A stretch of 64,000 nt of DNA from an uncultured Desulfosarcina sp. (GTDB taxonomy: Bacteria; Desulfobacterota; Desulfobacteria; Desulfobacterales; Desulfosarcinaceae), in assembly GCF_963668215.1 (NCBI RefSeq), contig NZ_OY764190.1:3348001-3412000 (forward strand). The letters are read 5' to 3'. The position numbers and the translations under genes were made by a program. The notes beneath the pieces were generated by a model, which ran no database searches, had not been told where the DNA came from, and was given only the letters and a program-made list of their open reading frames with translations. Shown piece by piece: positions 15,586 to 42,955 of the stretch (position 1 is its first letter; each line of letters opens with the position of its first letter).

Positions 15586-15786
15586 TTACGCTTTAACCAG
15601 CTTCAATGTGCCGTTTCCCAACAACTCCTGGAACTGGCCGAGCATCCTCTGTTCATGATCATCGATGATGCCATCCCTGTTCGCTATCTTCATAATTTCT
15701 TCATACTCGCTGTTGGTGATGACACAGTCTGCAATCGCCTTTTCAATCACCTCTTTCAATTCTAATCCCGATTTAGTTAGTTTCAT
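15586..15786 (-). CDS. Small helical acidic protein (66 aa), unknown function
   Basis: I do not recognise a named family. The chain is predicted to be all helical (KEVIEKAIADCVITNSEYEEIMKIA, then a DGIIDDHEQRML turn-helix), which loosely recalls a single TerB/EF-hand-like unit. It has a strong AAGGAG site, and its ATG lies inside the last codons of the upstream glycosyltransferase (14-bp overlap), so translation is coupled. Confidence 0.7.
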   Translation of the reverse strand: MKLTKSGLELKEVIEKAIADCVITNSEYEEIMKIANRDGIIDDHEQRMLGQFQELLGNGTLKLVKA

Positions 15787-16810
15787 TTTTTTTCTCCTTT
15801 TCAGTGTGATGAATCATTTCATAGACATTTATGTATTCAGCGACCATGCGGTCGACCGTGAAATGCCTTTCGACATGGCCCCGACAATAATCGCGATCAA
15901 CCTCCTGGATTCGTGCAACGGCTTCAACGGCCTCGTCCACGTTGCCCACTAAAAAGCCATTTTTACCGTTTTCGATAAGTTCAGCCATGCTACCTCTGTC
16001 GAAAGCTATCACGGGTGTACCACAGGCCATGGATTCGATAACAGACAGCCCGAAGGGTTCATCAAACTGGATGGGGTGCAAAAGCGCCATAGCTTTGCCG
16101 AGCAACAGGCTGCGTTCAGCAGGGCCGACACTGCCGATATAAGACACTTTGTCGTTGTCTATATGAGGGGCGACATATTGATCGTAGTAAGCCTGATCCT
16201 GGATAATGCCGGCCAATATCAATTTTTTTCCGCAGGCCTTGGCGATTTCAATAGCCTGCCGGGTCCCTTTGTCGTTATGGATACGCCCGAAAAAAAGCAG
16301 GATGTCATGTGGGGCTGGTTGAAAGTCAAACGGACTCATATCAATGCCGTGGTGAATCGTTTTGATATAATCGAGATCCGGCGACCGGTCGGCATCGCTG
16401 ATGGAAACATAGAACACGCTGCCGTTGTATTTTTTGTAAACCGGCAGGATGCCGGGTGATGAAAATCCATGGATGGTGGTCACGACCGGTGTAGCGGTCA
16501 GCCCGCTGTAGGTCAACGGCAGGAAATCGAATTGGTTGTGGATGATGTCGTAGGTCTCGGCATCTTCGAAGAGTTCTGAAATATGCAGGCACTCCCAGAC
16601 TTTGGGGATGAGTGCATGGTCTTCTTCATAGCCCCGTGGGCAAACGGCATGCAGCCTGCCGATGGTTTGAGAATCCGCGGTTGCAAATAAGGTCACGTCA
16701 AGACCTCGCGACACCAGCCCCTCGGTCAACAGTGACGTCACGTTCTCCCACGGTCCGTAGTGGCGGGGAGGCGTGCGCCAGGCAATGGGTGAAAGCATGG
16801 CAATATGCAT
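15773..16810 (-). CDS. GT4-family glycosyltransferase
   Basis: A 345-residue retaining GT-B glycosyltransferase. The N-terminal Rossmann half starts MHIAMLSPIAWRTPPRHYGPWE; the C-terminal half has FFGRIHNDKGTRQAIEIAK and the nucleotide-sugar EX7E motif in EPFGLSVIESMACGTPVIAF. Proteins of this type often use GDP- or UDP-sugars; the donor is not evident. AAGGATCC precedes the ATG. It is 12 bp downstream of a second GT4 gene, next to two GH130 genes. Confidence 0.9.
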   Translation of the reverse strand: MHIAMLSPIAWRTPPRHYGPWENVTSLLTEGLVSRGLDVTLFATADSQTIGRLHAVCPRGYEEDHALIPKVWECLHISELFEDAETYDIIHNQFDFLPLTYSGLTATPVVTTIHGFSSPGILPVYKKYNGSVFYVSISDADRSPDLDYIKTIHHGIDMSPFDFQPAPHDILLFFGRIHNDKGTRQAIEIAKACGKKLILAGIIQDQAYYDQYVAPHIDNDKVSYIGSVGPAERSLLLGKAMALLHPIQFDEPFGLSVIESMACGTPVIAFDRGSMAELIENGKNGFLVGNVDEAVEAVARIQEVDRDYCRGHVERHFTVDRMVAEYINVYEMIHHTEKEKKNETN

Positions 16811-16822
16811 GATGGATCCTTG

Positions 16823-19129
16823 TTATTCGATTTTCTGCGATGCCCACTGATTGAGCGTCTCTTCGGCATAGAGGTTTTGCAGGGTCATCAGCGACAGCAG
16901 CCATGCAAGGGAGGATTCGGCGCCTTGATTCTGGTTGATGCCGTCGGCCATCAGTCCATCCCGACAGCCACCGGTCTTGGGGTCATAGAGCGGCATGTTC
17001 AGGTCATTATGTCCGAGAAACCAGTTAAAGCACATGACCGCATTCTCGAACCAGGTCTGGTCACGGGTAACGTTAAACGCTTCGATACAGGCTTCGACCA
17101 TGGCGTTGGCCTCGACGGGTTGCTGGTCGAAACGGGCCCTGGAACCGCCTTTTTCATACCATCCGTTGCTGCCGATGGGCACGAAGTGCTTGTTCTCGTT
17201 CTGGATGGCGAGTAGCCATTTCAGGACCCTGAGACCCATATCGACCATATCGTCGCGTTGCATCCCCTGACCGGAGAGCAGCAGGGCATGAGGCAGTTTT
17301 CCGTTGGCATAGTTCAGGGCGTTTTCAAGCCAGGGCCAATCGTCGGTTGCCTGGTTGCTAAACTGATCGAAAAGCCGGTCGGCGAGAACACTGCGAATTC
17401 TGCGTACATCGCTGTCGCCGGAGAATTTATTCAGATAGGCGTGTATGCCCACCAGGCAGAAAGCGATTGCGCGGGGCGAATGAAAGGTCTCGGCAGCCGG
17501 CAGGGCCTTGTTGAAAAGGGTTGTGCTCATCGCCAGATATCCGGGATCGTCGAGGAAAGCTATGGCTTTACCGATGCACCAGAGCGCTCTGCCATGGGCG
17601 TCCTCGGACCCGACCCCCTCCATCCACTGCCGTGAATAGGTCATGAAATTGCGAAAACGACCGTTTTTTTCATTGTAGGCATATAGAAGGAATCCGAGAT
17701 AATGACCGCTGAGAGAATCGAGCCCCAAGCCGTTGGTCGGCAGGTATTTTTGACCCATGGCGGCAACCAGTAGCGCCCTGGCGTTATCATCGGTGCAGTA
17801 GCCGTGGGCACGATCGGGGATGGTATGATTGGCATGTTGCAGGATGCCGGTATCATCGGTAAAGGCCTTCAGGTGATCGAGATTGATCTCCGGCAGTTCA
17901 AAATTCGTGATGGCTTTGATATTTTCAACATAGGAATACCGGGGGCGGGGGTGATGGGTACGGTTTTGCCGGACCTCATTGAAAACCTGGAGGTATTTTC
18001 GGGATACTTCCCTCCATATTGCTTCACGGCTGAAGGTATAGGCTTTCTTGCGCATGGCGTGCCGCTCAACGTCGTTGTCCAGCAGGTCGATGATTTGTTC
18101 GGCGATGGCGTCCGGATTGCTGAAGGGTACGATTCGGCCACGACCGTCGGCAAGCATCTCGGTGGCGTACCAGTAGGGCGTCGAAACGATGGCCTTGCCC
18201 GTGCCCATGGCGTAGGCAAGGGTCCCGGAAGTGATCTGGGCTTCTTCGAGATAAGGGGTAACGTAAATATCGGCAATGCCTAAAAATTCACACAACTCCT
18301 TGAGTTCCACGAACCGGTTTTGGAAAATGACCTGCTCGCCGATATCGAGTTTGCGCACGAGCTGCTGCAGCATGATCCGATAGGCATCTCCTTGTGATTT
18401 GAGGATATGCGGGTGCGTTGCCCCCAGGATAATATAGGCCACATCCGGGTGCTTGTTGACGATCGCCGGCATCGCATGCAGCACATTTTCGATGCCTTTG
18501 TTCGGGGAAAGCAATCCGAAGGTGAGTAGCACTTTCTTACCTTCCACCCCAAACTTGTCCTTATAGAAGCTTGAATCGATAAACGGCGTATCCGGAATGC
18601 CGTGATGGATGAAGACGATTTTCTCTTCGGGTACCGCGTAAATATCCTCGAGGAAGTCGGAGGCCTTCCGGCTCATGACGACCAGTTTATCGGACAGATC
18701 GGACAGTTTGGACATGACGGCACGATATTCCGGCGCGGGATCATTCAATACCGTGTGCAGGGTCGTCACCACCGGCATGCGCAGATCACCCAGCAGTTTC
18801 AGCAGATGACTGCCGGCCGGCCCACCGAAAATACCGTATTCGTGCTGCACGCAGACGATATCCGTCTGATTGATATTGAGAAATTGAGACGCGGTGCGGT
18901 AATCGCTCAACTTGTTCTGATTGATCTCGAAGCGTACGTTGTCCGGGTAAGGGTATCCCTCGGGTTTGTCGTTCATGACCGCCGCCCAGCAGCTGATATC
19001 CGGTGCTTCCGCCGACAGCGCCTCAACCAGGTCCGTGGTGAAGGTGGCGATGCCGCATTGGCGGGGCAAATAATTGCCGACGACGGCAACCGAGTTGATT
19101 CCCGCGTAATACTTGATAACCGATGTCAT
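16823..19129 (-). CDS. Two-domain protein: GT4 glycosyltransferase plus C-terminal (alpha/alpha) barrel
   Basis: A 768-residue protein. Residues 1 to about 400 form a GT4 glycosyltransferase (VVGNYLPRQCGIATFTTDL, GLLSPNKGIENVLHAM, YLEEAQITSGTLAYAMGTGKAI). The C-terminal ~350 residues are helical with glycosidase-like segments (HGYCTDDNARALLVAA, EDAHGRALWCIGKAI, PVEANAMVEACIEAF), suggesting an (alpha/alpha)6 barrel whose catalytic role is unproven. The start at Met-Thr-Ser is chosen because AAGGTGA precedes it and the homologous region begins there. Fusion of a transferase with a glycosidase-like barrel, beside GH130 enzymes, points to a dedicated glycan made and recycled by this operon. Confidence 0.87.
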   Translation of the reverse strand: MTSVIKYYAGINSVAVVGNYLPRQCGIATFTTDLVEALSAEAPDISCWAAVMNDKPEGYPYPDNVRFEINQNKLSDYRTASQFLNINQTDIVCVQHEYGIFGGPAGSHLLKLLGDLRMPVVTTLHTVLNDPAPEYRAVMSKLSDLSDKLVVMSRKASDFLEDIYAVPEEKIVFIHHGIPDTPFIDSSFYKDKFGVEGKKVLLTFGLLSPNKGIENVLHAMPAIVNKHPDVAYIILGATHPHILKSQGDAYRIMLQQLVRKLDIGEQVIFQNRFVELKELCEFLGIADIYVTPYLEEAQITSGTLAYAMGTGKAIVSTPYWYATEMLADGRGRIVPFSNPDAIAEQIIDLLDNDVERHAMRKKAYTFSREAIWREVSRKYLQVFNEVRQNRTHHPRPRYSYVENIKAITNFELPEINLDHLKAFTDDTGILQHANHTIPDRAHGYCTDDNARALLVAAMGQKYLPTNGLGLDSLSGHYLGFLLYAYNEKNGRFRNFMTYSRQWMEGVGSEDAHGRALWCIGKAIAFLDDPGYLAMSTTLFNKALPAAETFHSPRAIAFCLVGIHAYLNKFSGDSDVRRIRSVLADRLFDQFSNQATDDWPWLENALNYANGKLPHALLLSGQGMQRDDMVDMGLRVLKWLLAIQNENKHFVPIGSNGWYEKGGSRARFDQQPVEANAMVEACIEAFNVTRDQTWFENAVMCFNWFLGHNDLNMPLYDPKTGGCRDGLMADGINQNQGAESSLAWLLSLMTLQNLYAEETLNQWASQKIE

Positions 19130-19208
19130 TACAGTCACCTTTTTATGTTTCGTTGTCGCTTGTCGCTCAGCTTGCTGTTGAATTTTGGAAGGCTTGCATA
19201 GCGAAGAT

Positions 19209-19784
19209 CTACGCCACGGCACATTCATGCATTGCATCGCAGACTAACTCAAAGACATCCACGATTCTGAGCACACCTACGATTTCTTGTGCGTCATGGT
19301 CGGATGTCACCAGCAGGCTGTGGTGACGTCCGACAATCAGTCGGTGAATGGCTTCATCCAGGGTGGTGCTTGCATTGACGAACTCGCCCATTCCGGGCGT
19401 ATACATGATGTCTTTAACCTTCAGGTGAATCGCTTTTTCGCAAAGGTTCTCGAGGGCTTTTTCCCACAGGTGATATTGCTCCAGGGTCGATTTAGCAAAG
19501 CCATCACTTAGACCGAGGCGATGCATGGATCCATGATTCATGGAACTTTTCATTTCTTTGTAGTTGGGTTCGAGAGCCGCGATCAGATCATGCTGGCTCA
19601 ACTTGCCCACAAAATGATTGTCGCCGTTGAACACCAGAATCGCCCGGTGCCGGTAACGATCCTGGCCAAAAGCGGCCTGGGCTTTCCTTAATGAATCGAC
19701 GGCATATAGCAGCGTAGCCGATTGGGGAACTGTCGCATACTCTGAAAGCGGTACCATCAGGTCTTTCACTTGGTAAGATCGCAT
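19209..19784 (-). CDS. Two-CBS-domain protein
   Basis: A 191-residue protein made of a CBS pair: YQVKDLMVPLSEYATVP...AILVFNGDNHFVGKLSQHDL and KVKDIMYTPGMGEFVNASTTLDEAIHRLIVGRHHSLLV...VGVLRIVDVF, joined by a helical linker. CBS pairs usually bind adenine nucleotides and report energy charge. There is no fused effector domain, so it may act on a partner protein. GGAGG lies upstream of the start. It sits 14 bp after the GlsB-type gene. Confidence 0.88.
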   Translation of the reverse strand: MRSYQVKDLMVPLSEYATVPQSATLLYAVDSLRKAQAAFGQDRYRHRAILVFNGDNHFVGKLSQHDLIAALEPNYKEMKSSMNHGSMHRLGLSDGFAKSTLEQYHLWEKALENLCEKAIHLKVKDIMYTPGMGEFVNASTTLDEAIHRLIVGRHHSLLVTSDHDAQEIVGVLRIVDVFELVCDAMHECAVA

Positions 19785-19797
19785 TTAACGCCTCCGT

Positions 19798-20043
19798 CTA
19801 AACTCTTTTGATCAAGCGCACGCCATACAAAAAAATAATTGCGCCTGTAGTTGCAACGAGCAGACTTCCGATCAGGCTGCTTCCGGCAAAAAGGCCTGCT
19901 TTTTCAAAAATAAGCCCGCCGATCAACGAACCAACCATGCCGGCAATGATGTCGACAGTCGCCCCAAAGTCTTTGCCCTTCATAAATTGCCTGGCAAGCG
20001 ACCCGGCAATCAGGCCAATCAAAATCATCCAAAAAAATTCCAT
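19798..20043 (-). CDS. GlsB/YeaQ/YmgE-family small membrane protein
   Basis: An 81-residue protein with three hydrophobic segments and the family pattern WMILIGLIAGSLARQFMKGKDFG...DIIAGMVGSLIGG. These transglycosylase-associated proteins are induced by general stress in many bacteria; their biochemical role is unknown. AAGGAG precedes ATG 20043; codons further upstream look non-coding. Confidence 0.9.
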   Translation of the reverse strand: MEFFWMILIGLIAGSLARQFMKGKDFGATVDIIAGMVGSLIGGLIFEKAGLFAGSSLIGSLLVATTGAIIFLYGVRLIKRV

Positions 20044-20143: not shown

Positions 20144-20515
20144 TCAATCCTTTTTGAGTAAATTCGGCGCAACGGCATGACTGTGACCGCGCTGTTTCCC
20201 TCGGGCTTCATAAACAGCTTCCATCCCTTCCGATTGATGAATGGTATAAATATTTATCCCATGCGGTTCGATCAGCAGGCTCTTCGTTCCCAGAAAAACG
20301 CCGAACATATCGGAACCCAGGTATTGATCCAAATCCCTTCGCGTATGCCACTCTTGAAGAAGATTAAGGAGGCATTTATCTTCCATATTGCAAAAGAGAG
20401 AATAGCTTATACAGCCCTTCTCCTTTTCCATTGGCTCAATCATCGAGAGAATTGTTTGCACCAGTTCTTTCTGTTTTTCAGGAATCACCTGCATGATAAT
20501 TCTGACGACGATCAT
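20144..20515 (-). CDS. ABM-domain (antibiotic biosynthesis monooxygenase-like) protein
   Basis: A 123-residue dimeric alpha-beta barrel (ABM) protein: IVVRIIMQVIPEKQKELVQTI, EKGCISYSLFCNMED, LLQEWHTRRDLDQYL. Relatives act as cofactor-free quinol monooxygenases or are of unknown role, so no substrate is assigned. ATG 20515 is preferred because GGAGG lies 8 nt away; a GTG three codons upstream is the alternative. This is the first gene of the minus-strand run ending at the UbiB gene, and the -24/-12-like sequence and dyad array lie upstream of it. Confidence 0.8.
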   Translation of the reverse strand: MIVVRIIMQVIPEKQKELVQTILSMIEPMEKEKGCISYSLFCNMEDKCLLNLLQEWHTRRDLDQYLGSDMFGVFLGTKSLLIEPHGINIYTIHQSEGMEAVYEARGKQRGHSHAVAPNLLKKD

Positions 20516-20672
20516 TATGGCCACCTCCAGGAAATGCCTTCCATCCTAATCATTCGATGATTTCAAGCCGAGAACGCTTCTTTGTTTTGGAAGAAACCGC
20601 GTTGACGATTGTGCGCAACGCACTTGCGGTTCGTCCTTTTTTGCCGATTATCGGCATCCGCCGACATTATAC

Positions 20673-20687
20673 TCAAGGTTCATGCCG
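20673..20687 (-). promoter_or_regulatory. Possible sigma-54 (-24/-12) promoter, weak match
   Basis: On the minus strand CGGCATG-N4-TTGA resembles TGGCAYR-N4-TTGC: the -24 GG is present but the -12 C is replaced by A. It lies about 158 bp before the start of the ABM gene and about 100 bp downstream of the dyad array, the geometry expected for a sigma-54 promoter with an enhancer. Confidence 0.4.
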
Positions 20688-20785
20688 TCTTTTGCATGTT
20701 CGGTGAATCAACTTCAATGGTCTGATTTAATAAGGAAAGATGATGGGAGAGATAAAGGTATTGGGAAAAATGCGGTATAATCGGT

Positions 20786-20818
20786 CGGCCATATATGACC
20801 ATTGATCATATGCGACCA
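20786..20818. promoter_or_regulatory. Tandem 16-bp dyads, candidate enhancer sites (array 1)
   Basis: CGGCCATATATGACCA (20786-20801) and TGATCATATGCGACCA (20803-20818) are two related inverted repeats whose starts are 17 bp apart. The same kind of array with the same period occurs at 42307-42356. They lie between the activator gene and the minus-strand directon that starts with the ABM protein. Confidence 0.6.
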
Positions 20819-20822
20819 ATAA

Positions 20823-22241
20823 TTATGGTTTCTGGATATCGAGTTTTCGCATGCGTGCGCGCAAGGTGCTTCGGTCTAATCCAAGTATCTCGGCAGCACT
20901 GTTTTTACCGCTTACCTTCCAGTGTGCCCGCTCAAGCACCTGAAGAATATATTCGCGCTCCACATCTGCAAGGGTCCGATTCGCCTCTGCTACCATTTTG
21001 CCCGCTTTTTGCAGTTCGTCAACCAAGTGCAGCTTGGGACCCGACGAATTGATCACGGCTCGCTCAAGGACGTTTTCAAGTTCGCGAATATTGCCAGGCC
21101 AGTGGTAGTTGCGCAACGTGTCCATCACATTGACTGGAACCAGATTGATCGACTTTCCGAGTCTTTTGGATATTTTTTCGATAAAATAATTGACCAGCAA
21201 CGGAATGTCTTCCCTGCGCTCCCTGAGCGGCGGCATGGTGATCGGGAAAATATTCAGCCGGTACCAGAGATCCTCACGGAAGGTCCCTTTTCGAACCTCA
21301 GCTTCCAGATTTCGGTTGGTGGCGGCAATGATGCGCACATCGACTTTTGTGGTGTTGGAACTGCCCAGGCGTTCAAATTCTCCGGTCTCGATGACCTGGA
21401 GCAGTTTGGGCTGCAACTCCAAAGGCAGCTCGCCGATCTCATCCAGGAACAGGGTGGTGCCGTTGGCAATCTCGAACCGCCCCAACCGTTTGGAATGCGC
21501 ATCGGTGAAGGCGCCTTTCTCATGGCCGAATAGTTCGCTTTCAATGAGATTCGAAGGCAGGGCGGCACAATTCATTTTAACCAGGGCCCGGTCCTTTCGA
21601 CCGCTCAAGCCATGAATCGCCCGCGCCACCAGTTCTTTGCCGGTTCCGGTTTCTCCGAGAACCAATACATTGGTATCCGTGGAGGCAATTTGCTCGACCT
21701 TGTAGAACACATATTTGATTTCGTTGCTTCGGCCGATAATGTTCTCATGGTTGAATTCCAGCTTGATTTCTTCCTGCAGGTAGGCTCTCTCGGCCTCGAG
21801 CAGATCTTTGAGTTTTCTGATTTCAGCGGTTCGTTCCTCAACCAGGTCCTCAAGGTGTCGTTTATAATATTCGCGTTCGGTCACATCTTCGATGGCCAAC
21901 AGAATCATATCGGTCTGGTTGCCCGCGCCATAGATCCGTCTGGCATTTAGATGCATGATTTTGGGACCGATGGTTTCAAAGGTATGTTCCACCTCAAAAT
22001 CATGAAAAGAGGTATTCTGAGGAAGAATGTCTTCCAGCAGTTTCCTGAGCCGGGGAATGTCCCACTGCCGGTTGCCCAGGTCATAGATCAGCACGCCTTC
22101 GGTCTCGGCGGGCTTGACATTGAATGTCCGATAAAATGTATGATTGGCCGTTACGACTTTCAGATCGGAATCAAGCACGATCAGGGGCTCACGGATCGAC
22201 CCCAGAATCCTGTTGTGAATTTCCAGAAAGGTTTTTTTCAT
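20823..22241 (-). CDS. PAS-domain sigma-54-dependent transcriptional activator
   Basis: A 472-residue enhancer-binding protein. A PAS sensor (about residues 8-125), a coiled coil (about 125-165), the AAA+ domain with Walker A GETGTGKE (196-203), Walker B TLFLDEIGE (263-271), WYRLNIFPITMPPLRER and HWPGNIRELENVLERAV, and a C-terminal Fis-type helix-turn-helix (SAAEILGLDRSTLRARM). The sigma-54-contact loop reads GAFTDA (243-248) instead of GAFTGA. The ribosome site is weak. The dyad array lies 5 bp beyond its 3' end. Its PAS domain is closely similar to that of the diguanylate cyclase at 28.8-29.8 kb. It is the best candidate regulator of both large directons. Confidence 0.93.
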   Translation of the reverse strand: MKKTFLEIHNRILGSIREPLIVLDSDLKVVTANHTFYRTFNVKPAETEGVLIYDLGNRQWDIPRLRKLLEDILPQNTSFHDFEVEHTFETIGPKIMHLNARRIYGAGNQTDMILLAIEDVTEREYYKRHLEDLVEERTAEIRKLKDLLEAERAYLQEEIKLEFNHENIIGRSNEIKYVFYKVEQIASTDTNVLVLGETGTGKELVARAIHGLSGRKDRALVKMNCAALPSNLIESELFGHEKGAFTDAHSKRLGRFEIANGTTLFLDEIGELPLELQPKLLQVIETGEFERLGSSNTTKVDVRIIAATNRNLEAEVRKGTFREDLWYRLNIFPITMPPLRERREDIPLLVNYFIEKISKRLGKSINLVPVNVMDTLRNYHWPGNIRELENVLERAVINSSGPKLHLVDELQKAGKMVAEANRTLADVEREYILQVLERAHWKVSGKNSAAEILGLDRSTLRARMRKLDIQKP

Positions 22242-22868: not shown

Positions 22869-24509
<1,641 letters not shown>

Positions 24510-24647: not shown

Positions 24648-26063
24648 CTATAATGACATCACCCGAATCATATTCGTCATGCCGGCGACCCAGACAGGGT
24701 TGCCGGCAGTGATGACAGCTGTGTCCCCTTCAATCAAATCGCCTGTTTCAACCGCCTTTTTGGATACCTTTTCGATCAGATCATCCGTATCCCGATGGTT
24801 CAAAATCATGCGGGGGTATATCCCACGGAAAAGAGAGAGTTGCCTCAAGGTGGGCTGGCTGGGCGTAAAGGCAATAATCGGTTGCTTGGGCCTGAATCTG
24901 GAGATGTGTATGGCTGTCCGGCCGGACCGTGTCGGCGCTAAAATCGCAGCCGCATCCAGGTGGTCCGCCAAAACGCAGGCCGCATAGGTCACCGCGTCCG
25001 AAATCTCTTTTTCCGGCACCATTTTCAGGTACCGATCATGGGGATAGGTTTTTTCCGCTTCGGCAACGATGCGAATCATATAGTGAAGCGCTTGAACCGG
25101 ATAATTCCCTGTCGCGGTTTCTTCCGAAAGCATAACGGCATCCGTTCCGTCCAAAACGGCGTTGGCGACATCCGAGGCCTCGGCTCGGGTTGGTCGTGGC
25201 GCGTCTACCATGGATCGCAGCATCTGGGTAGCCGTAATAACCGGTTTTCCCAAAGCGTTGGCTTTTTGAATCAGTCGTTTTTGGATGCCGGGCACTTCTT
25301 CCAAAGGTATCTCCACCCCCAAGTCACCTCGGGCCACCATGATTGCGTCCGCAGCATCCAGGATGTCGTCGTAATGATCGATGGCCTCATGCTTTTCAAT
25401 TTTGGCGATGACCGGTGTCTGCTTGTTCTCCCGGCGGATGATTTCTTTTATGTCCTGAATGTCTGCTGCCGTCCTGACAAATGAAAGCGCGACATAATCC
25501 ACATCAAGACCCAGGCCAAAATGCAGATCGTCACGGTCTTTGTCCGTCATGGAAGGCATGAGAATACTTCCGGTCGGCAAATTTATCCCTTTGTGAGACG
25601 TAAGCACCCCGCCCGTAATGATCTCACAGTGGATTTCAGCCCCGCTTACCGCGCCAACCCTGAGTTCCAAAAAACCATCCGCGAGCAATATTCGATCCCC
25701 GTTCTTTACTTGTTCGTTTAAAAGCGGATAAGAAACCGATATGCGCTGTTGCGAACCCGAAACGGTCTGCGAGGTAAGAATAATATGACGTCCCGGTTCC
25801 AATCGAATCCCTGGATCAGGGATAACCCCCACCCGGATTTTTGGTCCTCCGAGATCCTGTAATATCGCAACCGGTTTGGCCAGCTCTTCGGCGATTTTCC
25901 TGATGACATGGATTTTTTTCTCATGGTCAACGTGTGTACCGTGAGAAAAATTCAAGCGGGCAACACGCATGCCGCCTGCAATCAATTCTCTAATGACCTC
26001 AGGCGTGTCACTGGCGGGTCCGATGGTACAGACAATCTTGGTTTTTGGCAGGGCGATGGCCAC
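24648..26063 (-). CDS. pyk: Pyruvate kinase
   Basis: A 471-residue enzyme catalysing PEP + ADP to pyruvate + ATP. Seen: TKIVCTIGPASDTPEVI, RLNFSHGTH, the active-site signature IAKIEKHEAIDHYDDIL, MVARGDLGVEIP, TATQMLRSM, EASDVANAVLDGTDAVMLSEETA, and the C-terminal allosteric-type domain ending with TNMIRVM. The start is GTG 26063, seven nt after AGGAG. It is the last gene of the long minus-strand directon, 49 bp behind a pfkB stub, so glycolytic steps were once paired here. Confidence 0.95.
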   Translation of the reverse strand: MAIALPKTKIVCTIGPASDTPEVIRELIAGGMRVARLNFSHGTHVDHEKKIHVIRKIAEELAKPVAILQDLGGPKIRVGVIPDPGIRLEPGRHIILTSQTVSGSQQRISVSYPLLNEQVKNGDRILLADGFLELRVGAVSGAEIHCEIITGGVLTSHKGINLPTGSILMPSMTDKDRDDLHFGLGLDVDYVALSFVRTAADIQDIKEIIRRENKQTPVIAKIEKHEAIDHYDDILDAADAIMVARGDLGVEIPLEEVPGIQKRLIQKANALGKPVITATQMLRSMVDAPRPTRAEASDVANAVLDGTDAVMLSEETATGNYPVQALHYMIRIVAEAEKTYPHDRYLKMVPEKEISDAVTYAACVLADHLDAAAILAPTRSGRTAIHISRFRPKQPIIAFTPSQPTLRQLSLFRGIYPRMILNHRDTDDLIEKVSKKAVETGDLIEGDTAVITAGNPVWVAGMTNMIRVMSL

Positions 26064-35724: not shown

Positions 35725-35799
35725 TTATGCCACGTTAACTTCGATGGCTTTCGGTTTGGCCTCCTCCGTCTTAAGAATCTGTAGGTTCAGGATGCCATT
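35725..35799 (-). pseudogene. 3' end of an hsp20 gene fused behind ftsH
   Basis: Read in the frame that opens at 35799, the DNA gives [16 protein letters not shown] then KAIEVNVA and TAA. This is the closing strand and C-terminal tail of an Hsp20 protein (compare NGMLTVTIAKAEAAKPRQISV in the intact copy at 7.8 kb). It overlaps the last codons of ftsH in a different frame, so a deletion appears to have joined the ftsH 3' end to the hsp20 3' end. No start signal for this frame is present. Confidence 0.7.
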
Positions 35800-37700
35800 G
35801 TTGTCGTTACAGGTTTTGCGGCCGACAGCATCTGCCTGAGTTCATCACCCTGTACACTTTCATTCAGCGAAAGGAGGCGGGCCAGATCATCTAGAACAGG
35901 TCGCCGCGCCGAGAGGATTTTTCGCACACGCTGATGCGCCTCATCGACAAACCGGGAAACCTCGTCATCGATCTGGGCGGCTTTGGCTTCACTGTACTGT
36001 TTAGCAGAAGAAAAATTATCCGGAAGAAACATCGCCTGGCGCGGTCGCTCGTAGCTCACCAGCCCCAGGCGGTCGCTCATGCCATATTCCGCGACCATGG
36101 ATCGGGCAATGTCCGTCGCCCGCTGCAGGTCGTTCTGGGCCCCGGTGGAAATTTCGTCGAAAACGAGTTCCTCGGCCACGCGACCGCCCAGGAGCACGGC
36201 CAACCGGTCCAGCAGCTCCGCGCGGGTCATCAGGTAGCGGTCCTCGGTGGGCTGCTGCTGGGTGTAGCCCAGCGCTGCAATCCCGCGGGGGATGATCGAG
36301 ATTTTATGCACGGGGTCGGCGTGCTCGACGGACTCGGCTACAATTGCATGTCCGGACTCATGGAAAGCGACAATTTCCTTCTCCTTGGGATTCATCACCC
36401 GGTTTTTCTTCTGAAGACCCGCCACCACCCGGTCGATGGCCTCGTCGAAATCCGTCAACTCAACCGTTTCCTTATCGTTGCGGGCGGCCAGCAACGCGGC
36501 TTCATTGATGATATTGGCCAGGTCGGCCCCCACAAACCCGGGCGTGCGGCCGGCGATCAGACGCAGGTCGACTTCGGAGCCCAGGACCACATTCCGGGAG
36601 TGAATTTTCAAGATGGCTTCCCGTCCATTGATGTCCGGCCGGTCCACCAGCACCTGCCGGTCGAATCGGCCCGGCCGCAGCAACGCCGGATCGAGAATTT
36701 CCGGCCGGTTGGTCGCGGCCATGATGATGACCCCCTTATTGGTTTCGAACCCGTCCATCTCCACCAGAAGTTGGTTAAGCGTCTGCTCGCGTTCGTCATG
36801 TCCGCCCATCACATTCATGCCCCGCGCCTTGCCCAAGGCATCAAGCTCGTCAATGAAGATGATACAGGGCGCTTGCGCCGCGGCCTGGGAGAAAAGATCG
36901 CGAACGCGGGCCGCACCCACACCGACAAACATCTCCACAAACTCGGACCCGCTGATGCTGAAAAAAGGCACTTTGGCTTCCCCGGCCACCGCCCTTGCCA
37001 GAAGGGTTTTGCCGGTTCCCGGCGGGCCGACCAGAAGCACCCCTTTGGGTATCCTTCCCCCCAGTTTCTTGGATTTTTCCGGGGTGCTTAGAAATTCGAC
37101 CACCTCCTGCAGCTCTTCTTTGGCTTCGTCGATGCCGGCGGCATCTTCGAACGTGACCTTGGTCTCGCTCTCGGCGAAAATCTTGGCTTTGCTCTTGCTG
37201 AAAGACATCACCCCCATGCCCGGCCCCATTTTTTTCATTGTAAATCGCCAGATCAGGTAAAAAAGGCCCAAAGGGAGAACCCAGGAGAGAAGACTGCCTA
37301 AAAATTTGTTCTCGTATTGACCGGAATAACTGATGCTGCGCTCGTCCAGTTCCTTCACCAGACCGGGGTCGTCGATCCGAATGGTCTTGAAGGTTTGGTT
37401 TGATGATCCTGCCAGCGTTCCGGTGATGTTCTCCGGTCCAATGATCAATTTATCAACGGTTCCGTCGGCGATGGCTTTTTTGAACTTGCTGTACGGGATC
37501 GTTTCCACTTTTTCAGAAAACAAGAAAGGCTGCAGATAAGAAAAAAAGAGTACGGCCATCAGGAGATACCAGATGTTGAAACGCCTTTTCGGCGGCAACG
37601 TGTTGTTATTTTTCGGATGATCACCGAAACCAAAGAGACCTCGTAGCTTTTCCTTCAGATTAGCGATGGGGTCTTTGTCTCCATTGGATGCCACCTTCAT
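35787..37700 (-). CDS. ftsH: ATP-dependent zinc metalloprotease FtsH
   Basis: A 637-residue membrane AAA+ protease. Two N-terminal transmembrane segments flank the periplasmic domain; the AAA+ core has [21 protein letters not shown] and [20 protein letters not shown]; the protease domain has HESGH and an [11 protein letters not shown] segment. ATG 37700 follows GAGGAAA. The C-terminus ([11 protein letters not shown]) lies at the junction with the hsp20 remnant, so its last residues may be non-native. It is in the same directon as hflK-hflC, whose products bind FtsH, so a complete FtsH-HflKC quality-control module is present. Confidence 0.95.
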
Positions 37701-37719
37701 TTTCCTCATTTCCCTGTAA

Positions 37720-37998
37720 TCATTTAAGATACTTAACCAATTCTCCCATGGCCTTGGCAATCTCCTGGATCGCCTCATGCATGCCCTCGGCGCCGTGATC
37801 GAATGCGGAGGTTCCTTTCTTCTCGATCTTGGCCTGAACCTCGGATTTGATCCTTTTCAAATGCTGAGCGTGTTTTTCAACCTGCAAGCGATGCTCCTCT
37901 TCCAGGTCTTTGATGGCATCAGCATCAATCCGTTTGACCAATTCATCGGCCTCGGCCATTAATTGCTTGATATCGTTGGATTCTAAGTATTCTGACAT
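37720..37998 (-). CDS. Small coiled-coil protein (92 aa), unknown
   Basis: Starts MSEYLESNDIKQLMAEADEL. Mostly charged helix (IKDLEEEHRLQVEKHAQHLKR) ending EIAKAMGELVKYLK. No signal peptide or catalytic motif; I recognise no family. AAAGGA precedes the ATG. It lies 19 bp upstream of ftsH, so it may be an FtsH-related adaptor or substrate, which is speculation. Confidence 0.75.
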   Translation of the reverse strand: MSEYLESNDIKQLMAEADELVKRIDADAIKDLEEEHRLQVEKHAQHLKRIKSEVQAKIEKKGTSAFDHGAEGMHEAIQEIAKAMGELVKYLK

Positions 37999-38555: not shown

Positions 38556-39524
38556 TCATCGGTCCCACCCTTTTTCGGGGCTCGCCTGTTTGATATAATG
38601 ATAGAAATCACTATCAGTGGTGAGAATCAAAACGGAGTTCATATTGGTTTTCTCCTTGTAGCTTTCGAGGGTGCGCAAGAAAGCATAAAATTCTGGGTCC
38701 TTGTTGTATGCCTGGCCATAAATGTGCGTGGCGTCCGCGTCGGCCTGGCCCTGGACCTCCTGGACGCGACGGTAAGCGGTGGAACGGATCTGGCGCAGCT
38801 CTTTCTCCATTGTACCGAGAATCTCGGCGCTGCGCCCCTCGCCTTCGGAGCGGAACTGCGCTGCGATGCGTTTGCGCTCGGAAATCATGCGCTCGTATAC
38901 CTTTTCGCGGACACTTTCCACGTAATCCAGGCGCTTGATGCGCACATCCACCAGTTCGATGCCGTATTGCGGGATAATCTTCCGCGCTTCCGTCAGTATC
39001 GTTCGGGTGATCTCCTCCCTGCCGCGGGCAATCTCCCTTTTAAGCTCCTCTTCGCGTTCCTTTGGCACCTCCTTCAGGGCCTCGTCCTCGGGAACCTCCC
39101 ACGATGCGCTTCTTACAAGTTCAACGAGTTCGCTGCTCGACACCTGGTCGCGCACCACCGAATCGAGAATATCGTTCAGGCGCGACTGGGCACCCTCTTC
39201 GCTGGCCACATTCTCCAGAAATTTTTTCGCGTCGGCGATCCGCCATCGGGCCGTGGTGTCCACCCAGATGAACTCGCGCCCCTTGGTGGGAACCTGGTTG
39301 GGATCGCCGTCCCATACAAGCAGACGCTTTTCGAATCGCCGGACCTCCTGCACAAAAGGCAGTTTCATATGCAGTCCCGCCTCGGTCACCGGATCCCCCA
39401 CCGGCCGGCCAAACTGGACGACAATGGCCTGAAGACCCTCTTCCAATGTATATAGACCCCCATAGAGCACGATAACGATCACCACGGCTATCGCGGTGAT
39501 TACTGCTTTCAAGGTGAACTTCAT
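38556..39524 (-). CDS. hflC: HflC, FtsH-modulating SPFH protein
   Basis: A 322-residue SPFH/band-7 protein: an N-terminal membrane anchor (AVITAIAVVIVIVLYGGLY), the band-7 domain (AIVVQFGRPVGDPVTEAGLHMKLPF), a long helix with QFRSEGEGRSAEILG and a C-terminal AFLRTLESYKE. ATG 39524 follows AAGGGAG and overlaps the hflK stop by 4 bp. With HflK it forms the cage that limits FtsH access to membrane substrates. Confidence 0.93.
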   Translation of the reverse strand: MKFTLKAVITAIAVVIVIVLYGGLYTLEEGLQAIVVQFGRPVGDPVTEAGLHMKLPFVQEVRRFEKRLLVWDGDPNQVPTKGREFIWVDTTARWRIADAKKFLENVASEEGAQSRLNDILDSVVRDQVSSSELVELVRSASWEVPEDEALKEVPKEREEELKREIARGREEITRTILTEARKIIPQYGIELVDVRIKRLDYVESVREKVYERMISERKRIAAQFRSEGEGRSAEILGTMEKELRQIRSTAYRRVQEVQGQADADATHIYGQAYNKDPEFYAFLRTLESYKEKTNMNSVLILTTDSDFYHYIKQASPEKGWDR

Positions 39525-40570
39525 GGTTGACTCCCTTGCGTTGAAGGTTGCGCGTCGGACGCCAGTGGCAACCACGGCACCATCGCCTTCTGGTCCTGGT
39601 CCACGATATAAAGTCCTTTCATGTCCGACAGGAAACCGGTCATGGCCTCCAGATACAGTCGCCGGCGCGTAACCTTCGGCGCCTGTTCGTATTGTCCTAA
39701 AATGGCCTCAAAACGGGTGGCTTCTCCTTGGGCCCGGTTGACGCGTTCCAGCGCGTAACCTTCGGCCTCGCTGATGCGTTGTGTGGCCACCCCTCGGGCT
39801 TTGGGGATTTCCCGGTTGGCCTGTTCCTGGGCTCTATTAATCGTTCGCTCTCTGTCCTGGCGCGACTCGTTGACTTCATTAAAGGCCGGTTTTACGGTAT
39901 CCGGCGGAGTCACATCCTGAAGTTCCACGGTAACCAGACGCACGCCGGACTTATAGGTTGTCAGGATTTTCTGGATTTCGGTTTTGGCTTCACTGGCCAC
40001 CGCCACCCGTCCGGTGGTCAATACATCGCTGCCCAGACGGTTGCCGACCGCGCGGCGCATGACCGCCTCGGTAGTGTCGCGGATGGTTTTCGATGTGTCG
40101 CGGACCTGAAACAGGTAGTGGATCGGGTCTTCGATGCGGTACTGGACGATCCACTGAACATCGATAACGTTCAAATCTCCGGTGAGCATCAGCGACTCGT
40201 CCTTGTGGGTGCCGCTCGTATCATAGCGGGTCTTTTCACCGGGAATGGTGGAAACCGAGACCGTTCGAAAGCCGAACTCTTCTTTGAGCACGCGAGCCGT
40301 GGGCAGCAGACGGACCTTTTCGATGCCATAGGGCAATTTGAAATGCAGCCCCGGACCGGCCGTGCGCATGACCTTGCCGAAACGCTGTACAATCCCCGTC
40401 TCCTCCGGTTGGACGGTGAACCATGCGGTCCATAAGACCACCACCACCAAACCGGCGACAAGAATGAAGACAGGACCGCCTTTGAATCTTTTAAACTGCT
40501 GTAGAATTTTATTCAGCACGTCATCCAACGTCTCTTTGGATCCCCCTGGGGGTTGATTCTGTTCTGTCAT
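39521..40570 (-). CDS. hflK: HflK, FtsH-modulating SPFH protein
   Basis: A 349-residue SPFH protein with a Gly/Pro-rich cytoplasmic head (NQPPGGSKETLDDVL), one transmembrane segment (PVFILVAGLVVVVLWTAWF), the band-7 domain (GIVQRFGKVMRTAGPGLHFKLPYGIEKV) and an Ala/Glu-rich helix (AQEQANREIPKARG). AGGAGG precedes ATG 40570. The gene order hflK-hflC is canonical; an ftsH in the same directon is less usual. Confidence 0.93.
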   Translation of the reverse strand: MTEQNQPPGGSKETLDDVLNKILQQFKRFKGGPVFILVAGLVVVVLWTAWFTVQPEETGIVQRFGKVMRTAGPGLHFKLPYGIEKVRLLPTARVLKEEFGFRTVSVSTIPGEKTRYDTSGTHKDESLMLTGDLNVIDVQWIVQYRIEDPIHYLFQVRDTSKTIRDTTEAVMRRAVGNRLGSDVLTTGRVAVASEAKTEIQKILTTYKSGVRLVTVELQDVTPPDTVKPAFNEVNESRQDRERTINRAQEQANREIPKARGVATQRISEAEGYALERVNRAQGEATRFEAILGQYEQAPKVTRRRLYLEAMTGFLSDMKGLYIVDQDQKAMVPWLPLASDAQPSTQGSQP

Positions 40571-40666
40571 AACCTGCCTCCTAATTAATGAGCCGATCAG
40601 CTTCATCGATGCTTGTTTGTTCAGGGCGAATACCCTTCAGGCGATATGGATTCTTGCTCGCCTTGC

Positions 40667-41503
40667 TTAAAGGATATGCAACTCGCATATCCTCCGGTAA
40701 TGGTAGCCGTAGATGGTAAAGGTAACCGCTAACGGCAGCAACTTGGGCCTTCGTGCCAGGGTCCAGATCAACAGATACCAGTATTGAAATCGCTCTTTGC
40801 CCAATACGCCCAGTCGCAGGCAGGCACGAAAAAACGCCAGGAATCGCTGCCAATCGATGGGAACGGTGGCCGCCGGCGCATTGAGTTCTCTTAAAACGGA
40901 TCTGACCCGCTGGTAGTATTTGCGGGGTGAATAGATCTGCCGCATGATCCCACGGTACCCATCGATCAGGTGATCCAGCCCCATAGCCGGGAAAATGTTG
41001 GTCCGACCGTCCACATTATCCCCGGAAAAATCGGTGCATAACGGAATGGGGGTCTGGTGAATATCAGGGTAGCCGTCCGCACGGTATATTTTTTTCGGGC
41101 AGCCATTTTTCAAATCCGCAATAAAAGCCGGCAGGGTGATCTCGGCTTCGTCCAAAACCATTTGATCCACCTGTTGAAACGCGTCCGGTTCGGCGGTGAA
41201 AAGCGGTCCGCCGGCAACGACCGTCAACCCGTTGTTTCGGCAATGCGCGATGATATCGACAGCCGATTTGCGCTGGACCGCCATGGCACTGATAAATACC
41301 ATATCGGCCCATTCAAGATCGTCATCGGAAAGATCTTCCACGTTCAGATCCACAAGGCGTAAAGACCATGAGCGCGGCAGGGGGGCTGCGACCGTGAGCA
41401 ATCCAAACGGCGGAAATGCCGCTTTTTTGCCGATGAACCGCAACGCATAGGAAAAAGACCAAAACGTATCGGGAAAAGCTGGGTAAATCAGGAGAATGTT
41501 CAT
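40667..41503 (-). pseudogene. B12-binding radical-SAM protein with the radical-SAM core deleted
   Basis: The 278-codon frame is open. Residues 1 to about 140 are a B12-binding-type Rossmann domain (NILLIYPAFPDTFWSF, PPFGLLTVAAPLP, LVDLNVEDL, FISAMAVQRKS, VVAGGPLFT). After YPDIHQTPIPL it passes directly to CTDFSGDNVDGRTNIF...IYSPRKYYQRV, the C-terminal DUF4070-type region. Intact relatives are about 480-530 residues with a radical-SAM barrel between these parts; no CX3CX2C cluster motif is present here. The deletion is in frame, so a cobalamin-domain-only protein may be made. AAAGGT precedes the ATG. Confidence 0.75.
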
Positions 41504-41557
41504 ATGACAAAAACCTTTCATTATCCATGGCGGAAAACAGGATTATGCGGTGTTTCC

Positions 41558-42055
41558 CTATTTTGCTTCAGCTTCCAGATTTATCTTTTTCATTCGAATA
41601 ATATGTTCAATCATCTTTTGCTCGAACATTCCCTTGGCCTCAGAAATATGCTTCTGGAAACTCAGTGCGATGGCGGTATCCGGATTCCTTTTGACCAACT
41701 CGGCTTTCAGATAAAGCTCTTTCTCGTATATCGTCTGTCTCAGATCTTCAGTCGCCTTAATGAAAGATTCCTGCTCGCTATTCAGCTTTTTGACGGTCTC
41801 ATCGCCTAAATGATCATAGTACCCTGGATACTTGTTGTTGCCCCCCGGCATTCCCGTCTCATGAAAGCCATATCTCATCATATCCCGGCCGTATTTTATG
41901 ATTTCATCAGGATCTTGTCCCATGGTCCCGTAAGATCCATATCCTTTTCGATAACTGCTGGATTCCCAATCTCCGCTAATGGCAATCGAGGACAACATAA
42001 AAACCATCGCCACCGTCAGTATGATCCATATCCTACTCGATAGGTGGTTTCTCAT
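41558..42055 (-). CDS. Periplasmic Spy/CpxP/ZraP-like helical protein
   Basis: A 165-residue exported protein. The signal peptide (SSRIWIILTVAMVFMLSSIAISGDWE) is followed by a Gly/Tyr-rich stretch (YRKGYGSYGTMGQ) and a long helical region (LNSEQESFIKATEDLRQTIYEKELYLKAEL) typical of the heavy-metal-sensor/Spy group of periplasmic chaperones. AAGGAG precedes ATG 42055. It is the first gene of the long minus-strand directon and lies about 100 bp downstream of an excellent -24/-12 sequence. Confidence 0.75.
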   Translation of the reverse strand: MRNHLSSRIWIILTVAMVFMLSSIAISGDWESSSYRKGYGSYGTMGQDPDEIIKYGRDMMRYGFHETGMPGGNNKYPGYYDHLGDETVKKLNSEQESFIKATEDLRQTIYEKELYLKAELVKRNPDTAIALSFQKHISEAKGMFEQKMIEHIIRMKKINLEAEAK

Positions 42056-42155: not shown

Positions 42156-42171
42156 GGCAATCATTATGCCA
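42156..42171 (-). promoter_or_regulatory. Sigma-54 promoter (-24/-12) for the 42-24.6 kb directon
   Basis: On the minus strand TGGCATAATGATTGCC matches TGGCAYR-N4-TTGC at every defined position except the final W. A second, weaker candidate, TGGCAC-N5-TTGTA, lies at 42193-42208 on the same strand. The dyad array is 135-200 bp further upstream. Confidence 0.7.
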
Positions 42172-42306
42172 CCGTTCTCTGCGTCTTTACTGTACAATCT
42201 TTGTGCCAGGAAGAGACAAGGATCGCTACTATCCCCATCATATTGATTTGATACATTTATTTTGGCGCTTAACTTAAGTTGCAAATCAATCATCAGGCTG
42301 TGGTAA

Positions 42307-42356
42307 GGGTCACATTTAACCGATGGTCACATATGACCATTGTGGTATATCGACCT
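42307..42356. promoter_or_regulatory. Tandem 16-bp dyads, candidate enhancer sites (array 2)
   Basis: GGGTCACATTTAACCG (42307-42322) and TGGTCACATATGACCA (42324-42339), with a degenerate third unit TGTGGTATATCGACCT (42341-42356). Unit starts are 17 bp apart, exactly as in array 1 at 20786. The array lies between the divergent Spy-like and universal-stress genes. Confidence 0.6.
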
Positions 42357-42505: not shown

Positions 42506-42955
42506 ATGTTCAAGCGTATTCTTTGCCCAATCGACTTGAAAGACCGGTCCGACATGGCTGTCAAAAAAGCCATACAGATTGCGCACCAGTTCGGTTCGGA
42601 AATCACGTTGCTCAATGTCCACGAAGAGTTCATGGATAAGGAAGAAAGGGAGATGCTGCGCGTAAGTGTCACCAAGATGAAGGAAAAATACAGCCACATC
42701 GCCTCCGAATCCAAGGAAGAAATGAAGGCTATCATCCACCAATTACACGCTGATGATATTAAAGTGGATTACCTGTTGCACAGCGGCAAGCCAGAGCATG
42801 CCATCGTTGAAGTTGCTACGGAACTTGGACCGGACCTGATCGTCATGTGTACCGACGGCAGAAACAGCCTCAAGGATTTCGTTGTCGGCACCATCACTCA
42901 GCATGTTATCAATGCGTCCCCCTGCCCTGTGCTGGTTATCCCCAACCGAAAGTAA
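42506..42955 (+). CDS. Universal stress protein (UspA family)
   Basis: A 149-residue single-domain Usp: FKRILCPIDLKDRSDMAVKKA at the N-terminus, ITLLNVHEEF, and the C-terminal CTDGRNSLKDFVVGTITQHVINASPCPVLVIP. The ATP-binding pattern G-X2-G-X9-G-S/T is only partly kept (a Cys takes the place of the first Gly), so nucleotide binding is uncertain. AAAGGAG precedes the ATG. It diverges from the Spy-like gene and shares its regulatory region. Confidence 0.92.
   Translation: MFKRILCPIDLKDRSDMAVKKAIQIAHQFGSEITLLNVHEEFMDKEEREMLRVSVTKMKEKYSHIASESKEEMKAIIHQLHADDIKVDYLLHSGKPEHAIVEVATELGPDLIVMCTDGRNSLKDFVVGTITQHVINASPCPVLVIPNRK

Follow-up and report, generated by a model that had tools for sequence, protein, structure and literature searches.

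Tandem dyad arrays with stress-type target genes mark a predicted sigma-54/enhancer-binding-protein regulon in Desulfobacteria

The textbook promoters of the sigma-54 class that are served by an enhancer-binding protein (EBP) are those of the NtrC-glnA and NifA-nifH systems, and a C at position -12 is usual, but not invariant, in sigma-54 promoters. For Desulfovibrio vulgaris, two studies describe DVU3305 as a general-stress EBP, with targets that include membrane and UspA-type genes, and DVU3381 as an envelope-stress EBP, both being two-component response regulators, and give tTGCt as the -12 consensus (PMC3333781, PMC4641369). In one survey, the highest EBP counts were those of Desulfobacteria, with up to 69 in a Desulfosarcina (PMC12316311). 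No earlier account of the motif or of the regulon described below was found among the papers listed in searches of the open literature, judged by title and start of abstract.

The window analysed here is a stretch of 64,000 nucleotides of an uncultured Desulfosarcina sp. (contig NZ_OY764190.1, positions 3,348,001 to 3,412,000). It holds two arrays of 33 bp (Table 1), each composed of two 16-bp dyads with a period of 17 bp from start to start, and all four units were read where a preliminary description of this DNA had placed them. Three matches to the 16-bp consensus (≤3 mismatches) were found in the window, all of them inside arrays 1 and 2, with 0.16 expected from shuffles. The preliminary description had noticed no further such array in the window, and had regarded dyads frequent throughout the genome as speaking against its proposal. 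In a search of all 6.68 Mb of the genome, the degenerate tandem pattern (≤3 mismatches) matched only arrays 1 and 2, with 0 matches for the reversed-pattern control, and the array is therefore infrequent. A lone 16-bp dyad pattern is common genome-wide (190 places vs 166 for the control, ≤3 mismatches), so the signal resides in the tandem pair. A weak third unit, suggested at 42341, was rejected: one or two periods past either array end, no position exceeded 3 bits in any of the 106 oriented arrays described below, the window's two included. Four bases lie between the end of array 1 and the stop codon of the activator gene.

Table 1. Positions of the arrays, promoter elements and genes in the window.
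Feature	Position	Strand	Remarks
Array 1, promoter-proximal dyad unit	20786–20801	-	CGGCCATATATGACCA on +
Array 1, promoter-distal dyad unit	20803–20818	-	TGATCATATGCGACCA on +
IHF-like site of array 1	20715–20727	-	AATCAGACCATTG, 1 mismatch, 40 bp upstream of first base of -24 element
-24/-12-type element of array 1	20672–20687	-	CGGCATGAACCTTGAG, GG-N10-GA, 99 bp from array
First gene of array 1, ABM-domain protein	20144–20524	-	Pfam PF03992, E = 3e-12; same cluster behind 36/106 promoters
Second gene of array 1, small GlsB/YeaQ-like (transglycosylase-associated) membrane protein	19798–20043	-	Clusters with L180:18771-19058, PF04226
CBS-domain protein	19209–19784	-	Same direction; putative member of array-1 operon
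Two glycosyltransferase genes	15773–19237 (16823–19237, 15773–16810)	-	Same direction; putative members of array-1 operon
Activator gene	20823–22241	-	PAS - AAA+ - Fis-type HTH, one-component
Array 2, promoter-proximal dyad unit	42307–42322	-	GGGTCACATTTAACCG
Array 2, promoter-distal dyad unit	42324–42339	-	TGGTCACATATGACCA
IHF-like site of array 2	42236–42248	-	AATCAATATGATG, 1 mismatch, 40 bp upstream of first base of -24 element
-24/-12-type element of array 2	42193–42208	-	TGGCACAAAGATTGTA, GG-N10-GT, 99 bp from array
Second candidate element of array 2	42156–42171	-	TGGCATAATGATTGCC, GG-N10-GC, 136 bp from array
First gene of array 2, small ZraP/CpxP-like protein (weak), probably secreted	41558–42055	-	PF13801 Metal_resist, E = 0.002, below Pfam cut-off
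B12-binding/DUF4070 protein	40667–41521	-	Shorter than homologues, no radical SAM match
hflK (39521–40606) and hflC (38556–39575)	38556–40606	-	Over NCBIfam cut-offs
FtsH protease	35787–37778	-	Putative member of array-2 operon

The distribution of the tandem pattern was determined at ≤2 mismatches in 30 genomes of the family and in a class sample of 389 genomes. Arrays were present in 15 of the 30 family genomes, with one match of the reversed-pattern control (G012), and in 103 of the 389 class genomes, representing 49 of 148 genera, with control matches seen in G012, G204 and G332. At 1 mismatch, 7 of the 395 genomes of a phylum sample matched, of which five belong to the 378 genomes from other classes. 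Orthologues of the activator (E ≤ 1e-146, a threshold set after a gap had been seen in the match list) were found in 89 of the 389 class genomes. Co-conservation of activator and dyad in related genomes, proposed in the preliminary description as a check, was found: in the family the array was present in 14/14 genomes with an orthologue vs 1/16 without (p = 2e-7), and in the class in 75/89 vs 28/300 (p = 8e-42). The array is also conserved upstream of related operons elsewhere, the point on which its absence had been thought to tell against the proposal. At the stringency chosen, 14 genomes have an orthologue without an array and 28 an array without an orthologue; incomplete genomes may explain part of these mismatches.

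The regulon had been pictured as two directons, which proved too narrow. Relatives hold more arrays, up to nine listed places in one genome (G257), and both window promoters read leftward, on the minus strand. Arrays of relatives also cluster, with five places in 12.3 kb on contig C64 of G002 and five in 25.5 kb on contig C34 of G004. The family exception, G024 (L188:9378), shows one weak unit and an TGGCATGAAATTTGGG element at 101 bp, without an orthologue-grade activator. Four genomes (G134, G148, G223 and G226; loci L303, L211, L212, L213 and L214) share one array letter for letter, together with about 200 bp of flank that is nearly the same in each; G134 has three copies. On one side the similarity ends abruptly, and the array may belong to a mobile or repeated element.

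Each array had been described as lying about 100–150 bp upstream of a -24/-12-like element, and in both cases this element was found at 99 bp, on the minus strand. The second candidate of array 2, with the usual GC at -13/-12, scores 13.4 with the canonical matrix and the 99-bp element 13.2; we tentatively prefer the latter because its distance is conserved. The same matrix gives no more than 5.5 for the array-1 element, against 11.0 for a site without GG on the opposite side. The gene usp (42506–42955), considered as a target of array 2, was discarded, as the best canonical-matrix score on that side was 5.0 (258 bp) vs 13.4 and 13.2 on the left; the array would instead serve the ZraP-like/HflK/HflC/FtsH operon on the minus strand.

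A search without a preset distance, reaching 300 bp to either side, placed a -24-type element 97–103 bp from the array in 64 of the 73 class arrays; three further elements lay at 110–113 bp, roughly a helical turn beyond, and a fourth elsewhere. In the family, searched at 94–105 bp, it was found at 97–102 bp in 41 of 44 arrays, one duplicate contig included. No element was present at 95–105 bp in 9 of the 73 class arrays, nor at 94–105 bp in 3 of the 44 family arrays. The chance expectation of such an element is 0.0026 per array (~0.003). Outside 85–115 bp the free search matched once in the surroundings of the 73 class arrays and three times in those of 43 family arrays, in the family at 19, 136 and 269 bp; the 136-bp match is that of array 2 of the window. 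The spacing of the units is similarly uniform, being 17 bp in 72 of the 83 class pairs no more than 60 bp apart and in 44 of the 51 family pairs no more than 80 bp apart.

A set of 106 promoters, 42 from the family and 64 from the class, was compiled from loci chosen near listed arrays and activators, not randomly, and its distances are narrow by construction. Left out were L026 (same contig as L187), L178@9852, which lacks an element, and those 9 class arrays in which none was present at 95–105 bp; two of the family promoters, L161@15247 (92 bp) and L165@5638 (111 bp), were oriented by hand. Some genomes share near-identical promoters, leaving 89 of the 106 as non-redundant, and 87 of these 89 have the element at 97–103 bp, which is no independent evidence since the set was chosen by distance.

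All 106 promoters have GG at -24 and G at -13, 10 bp apart, and 104 keep GGCAY at the -24 side. These bases belonged to the selection score, so the independent support for the element is the distance that had been left free (64/73 at 97–103 bp). The base at -12, on the other hand, played no part in the selection. Most promoters show TTG on this side, followed by A in 78, C in 14, T in 9 and G in 5; the consensus C of sigma-54 promoters is thus found in only 14 of the 106, and by its -12 base we call this putative promoter a variant, not canonical, sigma-54 type. A dedicated RpoN paralogue reading the odd -12 was rejected for the window genome, which has a single match to the RpoN DNA-binding domain (Sigma54_DBD).

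Canonical TTGC promoter-like sites were found in 24 places of the window genome vs 5 for the control, one of them preceding a nifH-like reading frame (named by eye from its first residues), and 10 of 12 matches to a TTGA/T/G promoter-like pattern lie elsewhere in the genome. No array pair was present within 260 nt upstream of the nine such TTGA/T/G sites examined, nor upstream of the 10 examined of the 24 canonical TTGCW sites. Some of the nine array-less sites resemble genuine promoters, and bases other than C at -12 are therefore probably found outside the array regulon as well. Two sites of the window genome, L306 and L308 (near 2033312 and 2053802), carry promoter-like TGGCATAAAAATTGAT and TGGCACAAAAATTGAG without an upstream dyad pair, and are possibly TTGA-type sigma-54 promoters of other activators.

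The layout combines an upstream dyad, corresponding to an upstream activating sequence (UAS), with a putative DNA-bending site between the UAS and the promoter. A conserved AT-rich block (AAATCA...GATG) lies in the spacer about 30–40 bp upstream of the -24 box and is present in both window spacers. With the IHF consensus WATCAANNNNTTR, an IHF-like match (≤1 mismatch) was found in 43 of the 106 spacers, mostly at -41/-40, vs 15.9 in shuffled spacers. None of the 14 HU/IHF-type matches in the window genome reached the curated IHF-alpha cut-off, so the identity of the bending protein is uncertain.

The activator matches the AAA+ sigma-54 interaction domain (PF00158, E = 1.3e-70) and a helix-turn-helix (PF02954, E = 3.4e-11). 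None of its NCBIfam matches listed (25 of 30) reached the cut-off. The nearest named relatives of the activator, with 80%, 74% and 71% identity, come from metagenome-assembled genomes, the first labelled as Desulfosarcina sp. and the other two as Desulfobacteraceae. The window protein carries GAFTDA, a variant of GAFTGA; the loop reads GAFTGA in 13 of 18 orthologue rows, GAFTDA in 2 (the window included) and GAFTNA in 2, with none found by pattern in 1. Co-variation of this loop with the -12 base was rejected, GAFTGA being kept in those 13 rows. The PAS domain is strongly conserved across 33 aligned orthologues. HMMER alignments beginning at residue ~131 had hinted at differing sensors, and a sensor swap among orthologues was rejected on BLAST alignments with a conserved PAS, in which an insertion of ~21 residues breaks the alignment. 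Of the 49 orthologue rows listed, a few of which represent one gene in overlapping loci, 48 have RSTLRAR as the recognition helix; near relatives without arrays show PSTLRSR (G023) and SSTLRGR (G017).

At the loci examined, 24 of 47 activator orthologues or near relatives are followed by an array no more than 150 nt past the stop codon, and all 24 adjoining arrays read in the direction of the activator, with the promoter pointing onward. In several genomes an array on the activator's strand precedes the activator by several kb, an arrangement that appears compatible with autoregulation. Downstream of arrays at loci L276 and L263, non-orthologue proteins of 357 and 632 aa share the PAS of the activator (59% and 52% identity); a second protein with the same PAS sensor may feed the regulon there.

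For the genes served by the arrays, operon extent was derived from direction and spacing, downstream gene calls were mechanical open reading frames, ranked by conservation and uncurated, and cluster identities were taken from Pfam matches of cluster representatives. Sixteen stress-type clusters were chosen, and 84 of the 106 promoters have one or more of them within 5 kb downstream, a count that has no matched control and in which neighbouring promoters can share genes. The commonest of these clusters were ABM (36), BON (27), DUF5670 (19), HflK/HflC (18), FtsH (16), KhpA (12) and CsbD (11). These clusters are presumably stress families, by what is established for their homologues, and the word stress is used here in that sense. 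The B12-binding/DUF4070 gene of the window encodes 284 aa, most full-length homologues behind other arrays having ~490–506 aa, and gave no Pfam match to radical SAM; it looks internally shortened in this genome. A chaperonin gene (cpn60, 22875–24509, plus strand) and a pyruvate kinase gene (24648–26063, minus strand) are close to the activator and have no array themselves; in some relatives, members of both families stand behind arrays.

We consider it very likely that the arrays are the UAS, or enhancers, of a sigma-54 regulon, bound by the product of 20823–22241 and driving stress and envelope-maintenance operons. An enhancer layout with its own activator had been proposed at the outset, and it gains support from the co-occurrence of array and orthologue, the fixed distance of the element and the same-direction adjacency. 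Counting against it are the scarcity of C at -12, the low canonical-matrix score of the array-1 element, the GAFTDA loop of the window activator, the arrays that lack an element and the genomes with only one of array and orthologue. The one-component PAS/AAA+/Fis EBP would bind each array, a pair of its dimers occupying the two neighbouring dyads and seeding the AAA+ ring, in response to a signal that its PAS domain may sense. An IHF/HU-type bend ~40 bp upstream of the -24 box would fold the ~100-bp spacer and bring the ring to sigma-54 RNA polymerase at a -24/-12-type promoter, whose -12 is usually A and not C; ATP hydrolysis would then open the promoter and switch on the stress and envelope-maintenance genes. 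From comparative sequence evidence, a conserved regulon of sigma-54/EBP type, with enhancer arrays and stress-type targets, is judged to be real.

The activator need not act alone. The arrays could be bound by several paralogous EBPs of one family with a common recognition helix, and the regulon would then integrate more than one signal; this we regard as rather unlikely. Some genomes (e.g., G034, G134, G142, G143, G148, G223, G226 and G326) have two orthologue-grade activators, and the 28 genomes with arrays but without one point in the same direction, against which only one orthologue is present in the window genome, where the next match (E ≤ 1e-90) is 48% identical over residues 139–469. 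Arrays without an above-threshold orthologue, in those 28 of 389 genomes, would also suit dyads that are operators of a different DNA-binding protein, such as a GntR- or TetR-type repressor, with the neighbouring EBP coincidental. The half-site TGGTC/GACCA resembles FadR/GntR-type operators; however, a repressor operator needs no ~100-bp offset from a -24/-12-type element (64/73; 41/44), and the arrays co-occur with this EBP and adjoin it on the same strand, so that we hold such operators to be highly improbable.

Likewise highly improbable is the reading that the GG-N10-G element is a second binding site and not a sigma-54 promoter, transcription depending on another sigma factor. The absence of C at -12 in 92 of the 106 promoters argues for it, as does the single RpoN DNA-binding domain match, by which no special RpoN paralogue accounts for the shift; against it stand the GG, the 10-bp spacing, the TTG and an activator of the EBP class, which together are the sigma-54 signature, and the textbook C in the remaining 14. 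An EBP-driven sigma-54 regulon is the preferred reading. A broader proposal built on it is tentative, being in our view slightly more doubtful than probable: in Desulfobacteria-type bacteria, sigma-54 and a single PAS-type EBP would govern the general stress response, in place of a sigma factor dedicated to it (RpoS, SigB or EcfG), by means of a distinct promoter class (two tandem dyads, IHF-like bend, GG-N10-GA core at ~100 bp) whose non-consensus -12 would be of functional importance, making it strictly dependent on this geometry and activator. None of the 30 family genomes has an RpoS over the TIGR02394 cut-off; the sub-threshold matches, seen in 29 of the 30, are presumably other sigma-70-type factors.

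For one of the many EBPs of the Desulfobacteria, these data provide a putative DNA code, the architecture of its promoters and a set of genes, in the 75 genomes where activator and array are both present. Two testable questions are raised: do these anaerobes rely on sigma-54 in general stress, and what makes an entire regulon deviate from the usual C at -12?

Compared with NtrC-glnA and NifA-nifH, the array system is alike in the tandem dyad UAS, the IHF-type site between UAS and promoter, the -24 GG 10 bp from the -13 G, and the AAA+ activator with a Fis-type HTH; it differs in the narrow distance (97–103 bp, 64/73 class arrays) and in the A at -12 in 78/106. ZraS/ZraR/ZraP and PspF of enterobacteria are likewise EBP systems driving envelope stress genes, and the first gene of array 2 is weakly ZraP-like; the window activator, however, is a one-component PAS protein and not a response regulator, falls below the NCBIfam cut-offs for ZraR (285 of 760 bits) and PspF (294 of 444 bits), and would control a wider gene set. 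The RpoS, SigB and EcfG regulons share small-protein families with the array regulon (CsbD, BON/OsmY-like, DUF883/ElaB-like and GlsB/YeaQ-like), which here sit behind sigma-54-type elements instead. DVU3305 and DVU3381 are likewise EBPs of a sulfate reducer tied to stress genes; they are two-component response regulators, whereas the window activator is one-component. Judged by its promoters, the predicted regulon is set apart by its -12 base and its narrow spacing as a variant of the sigma-54/EBP systems.
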